Of a DNA stretch of 37,285 nt, positions 168 to 5,531 are shown piece after piece. The position numbers and the translations under genes are program-made. The notes beneath the pieces were generated by a model that saw only the letters and a program-made list of their open reading frames with translations, made no database searches and was not told where the DNA came from. Origin of the DNA: Anaerolineales bacterium (GTDB lineage: Bacteria; Chloroflexota; Anaerolineae; Anaerolineales; UBA6663); contig JADLEU010000341.1 of the NCBI GenBank assembly GCA_020845955.1, positions 1-37,285 on the forward strand, read 5' to 3'. Each line of letters begins with the position of its first letter. The stretch's first letter is position 1.

Positions 168-938
<771 letters not shown>

Positions 939-967
939 GCGGGCCTCCTGGTGAGGGCGAACGACAA

Positions 968-2455
968 TCAGCGCACGCCCAGCCCGGTGCGGCGCTCGAG
1001 CCAGTAGCCAGTCTGGGCCATGGCCAGGCAGCCCAGGTAGTAGATGACGGTGATAAAGAAATAGGCCTCACGGCGCAGGCCCAGCCAGTCGGGCTGGGCA
1101 ATGACGACGTTGGCAATGCCCAGCAGGTCGAACAGGCCCACGATGGTGACCAGCGAGGTGTCTTTGAACAGGTTGATGAACTGGCCGGTGATGGGCGGGA
1201 TGACCACGCGCAGCGCCTGCGGCAAGATCACCAGCCGAAGCTGCTGCAGGGTGCTCAGCCCGAGCGCGTCGGCGGCCTCGTATTGGCCCTTGGGGATCGA
1301 CTGCAGCCCGCCGCGCACGTTCTCGGCCAGGTAGGCGGCGCTGAAGAGCGCGATGCCCCACATCACGCGGTAGGCGTTCTCGATGTCGAAGTTGGCCGGC
1401 AGGAAGAGGGCCAGCATGATCTGGGCCATGAAGAGCACGGTGATCAGCGGCACCCCGCGGACGAATTCGATGTAGACGGTCGAGGCGGCCGCGGCGACGT
1501 TGCCGCGGTAGGCACGCTGGAAGAGCACGCCGGCCAGCGCCAGCCAGAGCGGCCAGAGCAGCAGCACGCGCTCGAGCACGGTGGTGGCGTGGGGCCAGCC
1601 CGGCAGCGTGTAGGTCCACAGGCCATAGGCCGCCAGCCCGCCCACGACGAGGGCCGTCAGCCAGGCCGGGACGCCCGGCAACTGGCTGCGGCGGCCGAGG
1701 GCCAGCAGGATGCCCAGCGGGAACGAGACGACGATGGCGAAGACAGTCAGGATCAGCGTCAGCAGCAGGCCGCCCCATAGGCGCGTCTCGACCGGGGGCA
1801 GGGGACTGCCGGGGCTCAGGCCGCGCAGCAGCAGCCAGATCACGACGGGCGAAAGCAGCCAGAGGGCCGTCAGCAGGCGGCGCGCCGGCCGCAGCCGGCC
1901 GCGCAGCGGGCCCAAGACCAGCACGAGGGCGGCCACCAACGCCGCCGCCAGCGCCAGGCTGGCCCACACGCGCCACAGGTCGCCCGCCGGGTATTGGCCC
2001 ACCATAAACAGCTTGAAGTTGGCGAAGATTACGCCCCAGGTGGCGCCGGTGTGCTCGCCTTTGCCGGCGAAGCTGGCGTTGACGATGGCCCAGCTGACCA
2101 GGCCGCGGGCGGCCGCGGCTAGCCAGAGCACGATGACGAGGGTGAGCAGCGCGCTGGGCGGCGAGGCAAACAGCCGCTCCTTGAGCCACTGGCTCAGCGG
2201 GTCGGGCCGGTGGCCGAGCGCGTTCGCCGCCAGCCACAGCAGCCCGGCCAGCCACAGCGCGCCGATGACGCTTGCCAGGAGCGGGGCGCGCGCCAACTGG
2301 CCGCGGAAGGCCCAGGCCGCGAAGAGCAGCAGCGCCAGGTTGCCCAGCGCCTGCCAGGGCGTGGCCCACACGTTCTCCTGGGCCCAGCCAAGCGCGCTGG
2401 CCAGCAACGGGCGGGCAGGGCGGGGCGGAGCGGCAGACTGGGTGAGGGGAGCCAT
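968..2455 (-). CDS. aapM: Polar amino-acid ABC permease (AapM-like) with extra inserted membrane segments
   Basis: Inner-membrane permease of the importer, 495 residues against roughly 380 for typical AapM. The ABC permease core is clear at the C-terminus: STVYIEFVRGVPLITVLF, the EAA loop ENVRGGLQSIPKGQYEAADALG and LPQALRVVIPPITGQFINLFKDTSL. The N-terminal part (residues about 30-210) holds several hydrophobic segments. Residues about 262-324 interrupt the core between LGILLALGRRSQLPGV and STVYIEFVRG; family members usually run straight across here. The insert contains two likely membrane segments (ALVVGGLAAYGLW and LLLWPLWLALAGVLF). The ATG follows the permease Q stop after one base, so translation is probably coupled. 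Confidence 0.9.
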   Translation of the reverse strand: MAPLTQSAAPPRPARPLLASALGWAQENVWATPWQALGNLALLLFAAWAFRGQLARAPLLASVIGALWLAGLLWLAANALGHRPDPLSQWLKERLFASPPSALLTLVIVLWLAAAARGLVSWAIVNASFAGKGEHTGATWGVIFANFKLFMVGQYPAGDLWRVWASLALAAALVAALVLVLGPLRGRLRPARRLLTALWLLSPVVIWLLLRGLSPGSPLPPVETRLWGGLLLTLILTVFAIVVSFPLGILLALGRRSQLPGVPAWLTALVVGGLAAYGLWTYTLPGWPHATTVLERVLLLWPLWLALAGVLFQRAYRGNVAAAASTVYIEFVRGVPLITVLFMAQIMLALFLPANFDIENAYRVMWGIALFSAAYLAENVRGGLQSIPKGQYEAADALGLSTLQQLRLVILPQALRVVIPPITGQFINLFKDTSLVTIVGLFDLLGIANVVIAQPDWLGLRREAYFFITVIYYLGCLAMAQTGYWLERRTGLGVR

Positions 2456-2456
2456 C

Positions 2457-4076
2457 TTACCGTTCTACGAGCGCCATCTTCCGGTTGTACCAGTTCAGCA
2501 GGGCCGAGATGGCCAGGCTGAGCGACAGATAGGCCAGCATGACCAGGATGATGACCTGGACCGCGCGGCCCGACTGGTTCATGATGGTGTTGGTGACGGC
2601 CACCAGGTCGGGGAAGCCGACGGCGATGGCCAGGCTGGAGTTCTTGGCCAGGTTGAGATACTGGCTGGTGAGCGGCGGTATGATGACGCGCAGGGCCTGG
2701 GGCAGCACGACCAATTGCAGCCGCTGGCCCTCGGTGAGGCCCAGGGCGCGGGCGGCCTCACTCTGGCCGCGGTGCACGGCCAGGATGCCGGCGCGCACGA
2801 TCTCGGCGATAAAGGCGGCCGTGTAGAGGACCAGGCCGAAGAGCAGCGCGGCGAATTCGGGCGTCAGGCGCGCGCCGCCGGCCAGGTTGAGGCCTTCTAG
2901 GCTGGGCAGCGACAACACCACCGGCAGCTCGCTCACACCGGCCAGCAGGTGGCCGGCGGGGTTTTCGAGCGTGCCGCGCTCGCCGGCCAGCACCACGCGC
3001 GGCGCGGCGAAGACGTCGCATTCGCCCTCGGCGTAGGCCGCCGTGGCCTGGTCGGCCCGGTCGAAATCCTCCATGTGGAAGGGGATGTTGCGCGCGCGCA
3101 GCAGCCGGGCCAGGTTGGGCTCCGACGGCGAGCCCTCGACGACGCAGACCTTCAGGGCAGCCTCCTGCAGCGCCTCGGGCCCCACCTGCTCCAAATCGGC
3201 CGGCGATAGACTGGCGATGCGCAGGCGGTCGAGCACCAGCGCCTCGAGCCCCTCCAGGGTGCTGCGCGCCTGGCCCACGCGGGCGCCGCGCGAAACCAGC
3301 ACGGCCTGGTTGTCGTTGAAGCCGGCCACCAGGAACCAACCCGCCGCCGCCACCGCCAGCGCGCTCAGCCCGGCCCAGGCCAGGCGGTTGGTGGGGCGGC
3401 CGGTGGCCTGTTCGCGCTGGCCCAGGATGAGCCACAGCACCTGGAACTGGATCAGCGCCAACAGCAGGAAGGCCAGCCAGGGCAGCATCGAGCCCGTGAA
3501 GACCGGCCAGGGCAGGGCGATGCCGCGCTGGCTGAGGTAAATGCCTAGGCCGGGACGCAGACTGTCGCTCACGGCCGGCAGGGCCAGGATGACGCCGTAA
3601 TACAAGAAGAAGAGCTGGACCAGCAGCGGGGTGTTGCGGATGATGTCGATGTAGCCGTGGGCCAGGCTGCGCAGCAGCCAGTTGTTCGAGAGGACGGCGA
3701 TGCCGGTGAAGGCGCCCAGGAGGGTGGCCAGCAGGATGCCGGTGACCGAGACCTTGATGGTGTTGAGCAGGCCGACCTGGAGGGCGCGCCAGTAGTTGTC
3801 GGTGGTCTCGTAGTCGATGGGCAGCTCGCCGATGTCGAAGGAGGCCGGCAGGTTCATGAAGTTGAACAGGCAGCGGAGATGGCTGCTGCCATCGGCGCAA
3901 AGGAACTGCGCGCTGCCCAGCCGGCTGATGCCGGCCAGCAGGTTGCGGCCGAGCCAGGCGGTGCCGGCCACCAGCGCGATGGCGAGCGCGATCTGGGCCA
4001 AGACGCCCAGCACGCGCACATCGCGCCAGAAGGGGATGGCGGCCGTGGAGCGAAGACGGTCGGGGCCCATGGGCAT
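2457..4076 (-). CDS. aapQ: Polar amino-acid ABC permease (AapQ-like) with an internal binding-protein-like lobe
   Basis: Second permease of the importer, 539 residues against about 400 for typical AapQ. Family hallmarks: VGLLNTIKVSVTGILLATLLG, YIDIIRNTPLLVQLFFLYY, and the EAA loop EIVRAGILAVHRGQSEAARALG followed by LPQALRVIIPPLTSQYLNLAKNSSLA. Between the membrane segment ending near residue 252 and the returning PSLEGLNLAGGARLTPEF (residue 391 on) lies an insert of about 135 residues. Residues 308-378 of it resemble the second lobe of the operon's own binding protein: VCV..G...E.NLA and AY..G.CD.F match at the same spacing. The insert is predicted outside the membrane. The ATG sits immediately after a strong hairpin, with no good Shine-Dalgarno. 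Confidence 0.9.
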   Translation of the reverse strand: MPMGPDRLRSTAAIPFWRDVRVLGVLAQIALAIALVAGTAWLGRNLLAGISRLGSAQFLCADGSSHLRCLFNFMNLPASFDIGELPIDYETTDNYWRALQVGLLNTIKVSVTGILLATLLGAFTGIAVLSNNWLLRSLAHGYIDIIRNTPLLVQLFFLYYGVILALPAVSDSLRPGLGIYLSQRGIALPWPVFTGSMLPWLAFLLLALIQFQVLWLILGQREQATGRPTNRLAWAGLSALAVAAAGWFLVAGFNDNQAVLVSRGARVGQARSTLEGLEALVLDRLRIASLSPADLEQVGPEALQEAALKVCVVEGSPSEPNLARLLRARNIPFHMEDFDRADQATAAYAEGECDVFAAPRVVLAGERGTLENPAGHLLAGVSELPVVLSLPSLEGLNLAGGARLTPEFAALLFGLVLYTAAFIAEIVRAGILAVHRGQSEAARALGLTEGQRLQLVVLPQALRVIIPPLTSQYLNLAKNSSLAIAVGFPDLVAVTNTIMNQSGRAVQVIILVMLAYLSLSLAISALLNWYNRKMALVER

Positions 4077-4078
4077 GG

Positions 4079-4110
4079 GGGGGCGCGGCCGCCAGATGGA
4101 CCGCGCCCCC
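4079..4110 (-). promoter_or_regulatory. Intercistronic stem-loop after the binding-protein gene
   Basis: GGGGGCGCGG and CCGCGCCCCC form a perfect 10-bp stem with a 12-base loop in the 50-base gap between the binding-protein stop and the permease Q start. The stem ends two bases before the permease ATG. Such structures are known after binding-protein genes, where they stabilise the upstream message and lower downstream permease output. Here it may also hide the permease start. Confidence 0.6.
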
Positions 4111-4126
4111 GCCGGTCTGGGTAGCT

Positions 4127-5299
4127 TTAGCGGAAGGGCGGCGAGTAGAGCAGACCGCCGTTGGTGTAGAGCGCGTTCAGGCCGCGCGGCAGATTGAAGG
4201 GCGTGTCGGGGCCGAGATTGCGGTTGTAGATCTCGGCGTAGTTGCCCACGTGCTGGATCACGCGCGCACAGAAGTCGGCCGGCAGGCCCAGGGCCAGGCC
4301 CAGGTCGCCTTCGACGCCCAGCATGTTGAGGATCACCGGGTCGTCGCTGCCCATCATCTCGTCCACGTTGGTCGAGTCGACGCCGAGCTCCTCGGCGTTG
4401 AAGGTGCAGAAGGTGACCCAGGTGACGACGTCGCCCCAGTTGTTGTCGCCGTGGCGCACCAGGGGTCCGAGTGGCTCCTTGGACATGGTCACGTCCAGGA
4501 TGGTATGCGCCTCGGGCTCGGCCAGTAGGATCTGCTGGCTGACCAGGGCGGACTTGTCGGTGGTGAAGCCGTCGCAGCGGCCCTGGTCGTAGGCCTCGCG
4601 CGTGGCGTTGGCGTCGGCCAGCACGATCGGCTCGTAGTCGACGCCCAGGAAGCTCATCACGTCGGCCAGGTTCAGCTCGGTGGTGGTGCCCTGCTGGACG
4701 CAGACCGTGCCGCCCTCCAGGCCTTCCAGGTCGGTGATGCCGCTGTCCTTGCGCACCATCATGCCCTGGCCGTCGTAGAAGGTGGTCGGGGCGAAGTCGA
4801 AGCCGAGCGAGGTGTCGCGGCTGATGGTCCAGGTGGTGTTGCGGATCAGGACGTCGATCTCGCCGGACTGCAGCGCCGGGAAGCGGCTCTGGCCGGTGGT
4901 GGCGACGACTTCCATGGCCTCGGGGTCGTCGAAGATGGCCGCGGCGATGGCCTTGCAGAAGTCGATGTCGAACCCGGCATAGGTTTGCGTGGCTGGGTCG
5001 AGGTAGCCAAAGCCAGGGACGTTGGCGTTGCCGCCGCAGATCAGGCGGCCGCGCTCCATGACGGTCTGCAGGGTGTCGCCGGCCTCATCGAACGTCACGG
5101 GCACCTGCACTTCGGTGGTGGTGGGGGTGCCTTCGACGGGCACCTCGACCGTCACCGGCACTTCGACGGTGACGACGCGGGTGACTTCGACTTGGGCGCC
5201 GGGGCTTGTGCTCGGCGTGGCGGTGGGGGTGGCGCAGGCGGCGAACAGGAACGAGAGGGCCAAAAGGCCGGCGGCGATTGCGTAGGTCTTACGGTTCAC
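4127..5299 (-). CDS. aapJ: Polar amino-acid ABC transporter, substrate-binding lipoprotein
   Basis: Extracytoplasmic receptor of the importer, 390 residues. The GTG start at 5299 is preceded by AAGGAGG five bases upstream, and the protein then begins with a lipoprotein signal (FLFAAC, Cys22). A Thr/Pro/Val-rich linker with VTVEVPVTVEVP repeats follows, as is common in Chloroflexota binding proteins. The bilobed AapJ/GltI-like domain starts near residue 80: GRLICGGNANVPGFGYLD, YAGFDIDFCKAIAAAIF, FPALQSGEIDVLIRNTTWT, then lobe two from TVCVQQGTTTELNLADVM to AYDQGRCDGFTTDKSAL. The C-terminus (NYAEIYNRNLG..., PRGLNALYTNGGLLYSPPFR) is typical of AapJ. It is first in the operon and has its own strong promoter. 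Reading the open frame further upstream adds 70 residues with no signal, so the GTG is preferred. Confidence 0.93.
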   Translation of the reverse strand: MNRKTYAIAAGLLALSFLFAACATPTATPSTSPGAQVEVTRVVTVEVPVTVEVPVEGTPTTTEVQVPVTFDEAGDTLQTVMERGRLICGGNANVPGFGYLDPATQTYAGFDIDFCKAIAAAIFDDPEAMEVVATTGQSRFPALQSGEIDVLIRNTTWTISRDTSLGFDFAPTTFYDGQGMMVRKDSGITDLEGLEGGTVCVQQGTTTELNLADVMSFLGVDYEPIVLADANATREAYDQGRCDGFTTDKSALVSQQILLAEPEAHTILDVTMSKEPLGPLVRHGDNNWGDVVTWVTFCTFNAEELGVDSTNVDEMMGSDDPVILNMLGVEGDLGLALGLPADFCARVIQHVGNYAEIYNRNLGPDTPFNLPRGLNALYTNGGLLYSPPFR

Positions 5300-5382
5300 G
5301 GACTCCTCCTTGTTGAATCGGACATGGTGAGCATTGAGTGGGTAGGACTGGTTTGCTCCACCTGGGGTGGCATCACCTCCTT
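5296..5382 (-). promoter_or_regulatory. Leader with a perfect anti-SD match and a 25-codon overlapping ORF
   Basis: The leader carries AAGGAGGTGAT, an 11-base perfect complement to the usual 16S rRNA tail, about 80 bases before the GTG start. An ATG at 5373 lies only two bases after AAGGAGG, too close for ordinary initiation. It would encode 25 residues and stop at a TGA that overlaps the binding-protein start (GTGA). This could be a coupled leader ORF or a ribosome standby site; the spacing argues against normal translation. Confidence 0.35.
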
Positions 5383-5426
5383 CGCGATTGGCACTCCGCG
5401 CAAGGATTCCCTGCGAGTAGGTTGAG

Positions 5427-5454
5427 AGTATAAACCGGTTGGGGATTAAGTCAA
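5427..5454 (-). promoter_or_regulatory. Near-consensus sigma-70-type promoter of the ABC operon
   Basis: On the minus strand, TTGACT (5454-5449) and TATACT (5432-5427) are separated by 16 bases. The expected start is near 5420, giving a leader of about 120 bases. This is the best-matching promoter in the window and fits high expression of a binding protein. Confidence 0.7.
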
Positions 5455-5531
5455 CGGGGACCGCGAGCTGCGCGCTGTTCGTGGCGCTGGAGGCGGCGCG
5501 CGTGGCCACGGCCCACGGGCGGCGGCCTGCC

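Follow-up and report, generated by a model that had tools for sequence, protein, structure and literature searches.

In the window (the whole stretch of DNA analysed, 37,285 nucleotides), the AapQ-like permease of an amino-acid ABC importer almost certainly harbours lobe 2 of a substrate-binding protein (SBP) within the extracytoplasmic loop between its transmembrane segments TM5 and TM6. Judging by its residues, this insert would be a ligand-dead pseudo-lobe standing beside a complete SBP gene. As to its role, we favour, with a probability of roughly one half, an accessory domain that helps the SBP to dock, in the manner of MalF-P2.

The operon occupies window positions 168 to 5509 on the minus strand and is of the aap amino-acid importer type, with the gene order SBP, AapQ, AapM and ATPase (Table 1). 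The SBP has the lipobox LFAAC, both ligand motifs intact (GTTT and TTD) and its own complete lobe 2. Its true start probably lies near position 5299; a promoter-like TTGACT-16-TATACT (5427-5454, minus strand) is found upstream of this point, and the start of the 460-aa ORF is therefore probably too early. The permease of 539 aa, whose coordinates and extra segment are as given in the preliminary description, is of the AapQ/BztB type: its BPD_transp_1 core and its HEQRo_perm_3TM domain both score above the curated cut-offs (PF00528, 56.3 bits, cut-off 26.4; TIGR01726, 66 bits, curated cut-off 42.2), the EAA loop (EAARALGLTEGQ...LPQA) is readable, and the operon supplies SBP, second permease and ATPase. 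Operon make-up, permease core and both domains are thus shared with the AapJQMP and BztABCD systems (AapQ, BztB), and the nearest canonical AapQs are 50-53% identical to the window AapQ (aligner's figure). Canonical AapQs are shorter, at about 390-430 aa.

Table 1. Features of the aap-type operon in the window and of its AapQ-like permease (residue numbers are those of AapQ).
Feature	Window positions	Strand	Basis or remark
AapP/GlnQ-like ATPase	168..938	-	
AapM-like permease, 495 aa, without SBP-like part	968..2455	-	
AapQ-like permease, 539 aa, bearing the lobe-2 insert	2457..4076	-	BPD_transp_1 + HEQRo_perm_3TM
AapJ-type amino-acid SBP lipoprotein, 460-aa ORF	4127..5509	-	TIGR01096 E=2e-46; SBP_bac_3 E=1e-15
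Two-Cys motif LGSAQFLCADGSSHLRCLFNF, residues 53-73, first extracytoplasmic loop	3858..3920	-	
Insert, residues 253-384, lobe-2 domain of SBP type, extracytoplasmic loop TM5-TM6	2925..3320	-	
First-hinge-strand equivalent, residues 254-261, NDNQAVLV (SBP YDGQGMMV)	3294..3317	-	hhalign
Added helical segment, residues 272-304, not in SBPs, variable among homologues	3165..3263	-	SBP-alignment gap
Lobe-2 alpha/beta core, residues 307-378, with Cys311 and Cys353, degenerate ligand sites	2943..3158	-	
Second-hinge-strand equivalent, residues 380-390, SBP SKEPLGP paired with insert SELPVVL	2907..2939	-	hhalign

The window AapQ has about 131 extra residues between TM5 and TM6, at a place where in canonical AapQs the equivalent of residue 250 or so is joined directly to that of residue 384 or so. 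The stretch between residues 249 and 385 counts 137 residues here and 10 or fewer in 115 of the 135 aligned AapQs; the loop is therefore not an element common to AapQ proteins. By hydropathy TM5 spans residues 232-254 and TM6 residues 404-434, and since TM5 precedes the insert and TM6 follows it, running into the EAA loop, the insert is placed on the extracytoplasmic side. It contains no hydrophobic segment (KD-19 maximum 0.75).

That this segment derives from an SBP is indicated by several searches. When the 136-residue segment was compared with the operon SBP by BLASTP, E was 1e-7 across 74 residues, and with phmmer the sole match among 177,635 distinct PDB sequences was 4z9n, an amino-acid SBP (E=1.3e-8). 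An SBP HMM aligned permease residues 308-378, exactly the range for which similarity had been proposed beforehand, and scored 45 bits on the insert compared to a maximum of 5.6 bits over 3,600 shuffled inserts; the E-values of this HMM come from very small target sets, that of the PDB search being the rigorous one. A profile of eleven inserts aligned with an SBP profile in hhalign from hinge strand to hinge strand (E=4.2e-18, Prob 99.1). The preliminary description had spoken of a half-lobe or fragment; with the homology reaching from one hinge strand to the other, the insert covers the whole of lobe 2, with some 30 helical residues added after the first strand. No second SBP-like stretch corresponding to lobe 1 was found in either AapQ or AapM.

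Family models largely miss this domain. TIGR01096 matches permease residues 307-380 (E=3e-4) with 20.3 bits, below its curated cut-off of 256.35, and matches four of eight homologous lobe-2 permeases at the equivalent place; PF00497 gave no match in the permease. Because Pfam does not see the lobe-2 domain, such proteins are filed as plain permeases.

An AlphaFold model of the insert, with 40 SBP lobe-2 rows in the alignment, reached pLDDT 84 and pTM 0.79, the added segment 272-304 forming helices at pLDDT about 88-92. Foldseek ranked 4z9n first (E=5.4e-8), and VIA-align placed model residues 7-137 on residues 102-202 of 4z9n (Z 13.0, 2.1 A, 100 residues) and also matched the isolated lobe 2 of TmArgBP (6gpm). 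As SBP rows sat in the alignment, this match shows compatibility and is not independent proof. A single-sequence model of the insert was unusable (pLDDT 40), though the order of strands and helices was as expected, and an alignment of SBP fragments on the full-length permease by MAFFT was discarded because the fragments were misplaced. Lobe 2 of an SBP can fold as a unit by itself, as exemplified by TmArgBP D2 (PDB 6GPM). With 4z9n, the AapJ-type SBP of Brucella ovis, the insert has the lobe-2 sequence and fold in common, including the two Cys positions; what sets it apart is the absence of lobe 1 and of the ligand residues, and the added helical segment.

Conservation within the insert is uneven. 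Cys311, Cys353 and Asn321 are invariant in the 22 inserts examined, Q257 is present in 20 and the hinge residue Pro385 in 21. The TTT motif is found in none of the 22 and the ligand Asp in one (the window insert has SPS at residues 316-318 and Pro359 at these sites), whereas GTTT is present in 105 of 108 SBPs and the Asp likewise in 105 of 108. We take these residues to hold the amino acid by its carboxylate and ammonium groups, as in SBPs of the LAO/HisJ/GlnH type. As the window insert lacks them and the operon SBP has both motifs, ligand binding would remain with the SBP, the embedded lobe being ligand-dead. For the pair L149/L150 the dN/dS of the insert is 0.04, with synonymous sites near saturation, and for the pair L151/L152 it is 0.64. 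Compared with the permease core, the insert is the faster-evolving part (mean identity 33% versus 66%). The low value for L149/L150 speaks for purifying selection on the insert, in which the residues defining the fold were kept and those for the ligand were lost.

Of the genomes sampled, 9 of 301 from the order had the lobe-2 form, as did about 35 of 396 from the class (many from family f20, several from f135) and 3 of 400 from the phylum, each of these three belonging to the class; these counts are lower bounds, since few candidates were scored per genome. The long ORFs of family f24 were rejected as candidates, their loops being short and without lobe 2. In trees calculated without the insert columns the lobe-2 AapQs form one clade, both in the first set (11 of 11, SH-aLRT 99) and in the larger one (21 of 21, SH-aLRT 99.6). 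Members from f8 and f11 fall within this clade beside f20 despite other species of f8 and f11 having plain AapQs, which suggests transfer of the operon or an old paralogy. The inserts are in general no nearer to the SBP of their own operon than to other AapJ-type SBPs, making a single old insertion likelier than repeated copying. Lobe 2 of an AapJ-type receptor thus apparently entered AapQ once, in an ancestor within this class of the Chloroflexota. If the proposal that the permease carries a piece of its own binding protein is taken to mean recent copying from the operon SBP, it has to be given up, since own pairs do not score highest. In all nine homologous operons with upstream sequence (L143-L146, L148-L152) an AapJ-type SBP gene precedes AapQ, and its ligand motifs are intact where the sequence covers them.

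Other features accompany the lobe-2 permeases. The first extracytoplasmic loop carries the two-Cys motif LGxxQFxCxDGxxxxRC in 11 of 11 lobe-2 AapQs and in none of 124 other AapQs of the first set; the motif marks most lobe-2 AapQs with the exception of family f135, being missing in L195-L199. In L195 and L196, of that family, the first hinge strand and the lobe-2 core are separated by an extra low-complexity linker, rich in Ala and Glu and several tens of residues long. The AapM partners are long, with 495 aa in the window and ORFs of 717-726 aa in L148-L150. These proteins (window 968-2455; L148:5139-7316, L149:4895-7063, L150:1505-3655) have an additional N-terminal hydrophobic part, and those of L148-L150 carry a further segment of about 80 residues.

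For the function we start from MalF-P2 (MalF residues 91-271), a large domain in an extracytoplasmic loop of the type I importer MalFGK2 which contacts the SBP (PMC3150292). This precedent of a permease loop domain touching its own SBP makes docking plausible. The insert, whose fold is predicted, resembles MalF-P2 in being large, folded and lodged in an extracytoplasmic loop of a permease of type I; it differs in origin, fold and location within the permease, and the contact with the SBP is known for MalF-P2 and proposed for the insert. The pseudo-lobe would sit where the translocation path opens to the outside and hold or orient the complete lipoprotein SBP, the effect being either a higher local concentration of the receptor or a docking coupled to the gate.

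It is also possible, though we hold it to be rather doubtful, that the insert plays a structural or passenger part, as an early acquisition which a permissive loop tolerated and which was kept for stability or surface exposure and not for docking. The TM5-TM6 loop is an insertion hotspot that accepts accessory domains; this is in line with docking and also keeps the passenger explanation alive. An AapQ of family f128 (genome G1127, L208:1173-2696, plus strand) carries at residues 291-355 of the equivalent loop an SdrD_B-like domain (PF17210, E=1.4e-6, 28.9 bits, slightly below the gathering score of 29.7). In the AapQs of Acidimicrobiia (L033-L037, L057, L058), which form one clade, the equivalent site is filled by some 90-125 residues of extra membrane helices, on account of which these inserts were rejected as SBP-like. 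Two AapQs of Rhodobacterales (L044:5520-5984, L168:1216-1599), not sisters in the tree, are each extended at the equivalent site by a soluble insert of some 110 residues. Their similarity to lobe 2 is weak: the insert of L044 scored 5.9 bits with the SBP HMM and had no PDB match; that of L168 had no significant match to the SBP HMM and an hhalign value of 4e-5 to the insert profile, and TIGR01096 matches neither. They are possibly independent insertions. With unrelated sequences in this loop elsewhere, the site does not require a function specific to an SBP lobe, and a passenger under weak constraint could likewise explain the fast evolution of the insert relative to the core and the dN/dS of 0.64, as well as the acidic low-complexity linkers of f135. 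Against it speak the retention of the insert across several families and throughout a deep clade, the conserved Cys pair and the low dN/dS in close pairs.

We consider it unlikely that the insert is a decoy, a built-in pseudo-receptor that would regulate gating by mimicking or occupying the dock for lobe 2, with the free SBP displacing it or pairing with it. A tethered lobe imitating the docked lobe 2 could leave the permeases part-primed or their dock occupied, a form of autoregulation, and if this were true the receptor would face a competitor built into its own importer. Exactly one whole lobe, from the right receptor family, ligand-dead and placed on the permease's outer side, is what such a device would look like; however, the normal dock is not visibly lost from the permease core, and the operon SBP brings a complete lobe 2.

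The preliminary description had further considered a low-affinity gate, in which the inserted lobe would bind the amino acid en route to the channel. The homology to a ligand-binding lobe is in its favour, but this role is very improbable, with TTT gone from all 22 inserts and the ligand Asp from 21, and with lobe 1 and its ligand residues missing, also from AapM. Chance similarity or an assembly artefact can practically be dismissed: the window genome is a draft of 431 contigs, but the insert is in frame in dozens of genomes, including G641 and G1290 (assemblies of 3 and 7 contigs), and the E-value of the PDB search speaks against chance.

In the importers GlnPQ and OpuA complete ligand-binding SBDs are located at a terminus of the permease. 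The window AapQ shares with them an SBP-derived domain that is covalently part of the permease, and differs in that this domain is one lobe only, ligand-dead and placed in the core between TM5 and TM6, while a separate SBP gene is kept; the contrast to terminal fusions drawn in the preliminary description holds. Our search of the open-access literature yielded no account of a permease with an SBP lobe in its core, which does not prove absence. What appears to be new is a single ligand-dead SBP lobe in a core loop of the permease of a known importer family.

For type I importers it has long been asked how the two lobes of the SBP each convey a signal to the permease. An isolated, ligand-dead lobe fixed permanently at the mouth of the channel would be a natural experiment on the communication between receptor and channel, and, since most relatives are without it, the lobe should be cleanly removable.
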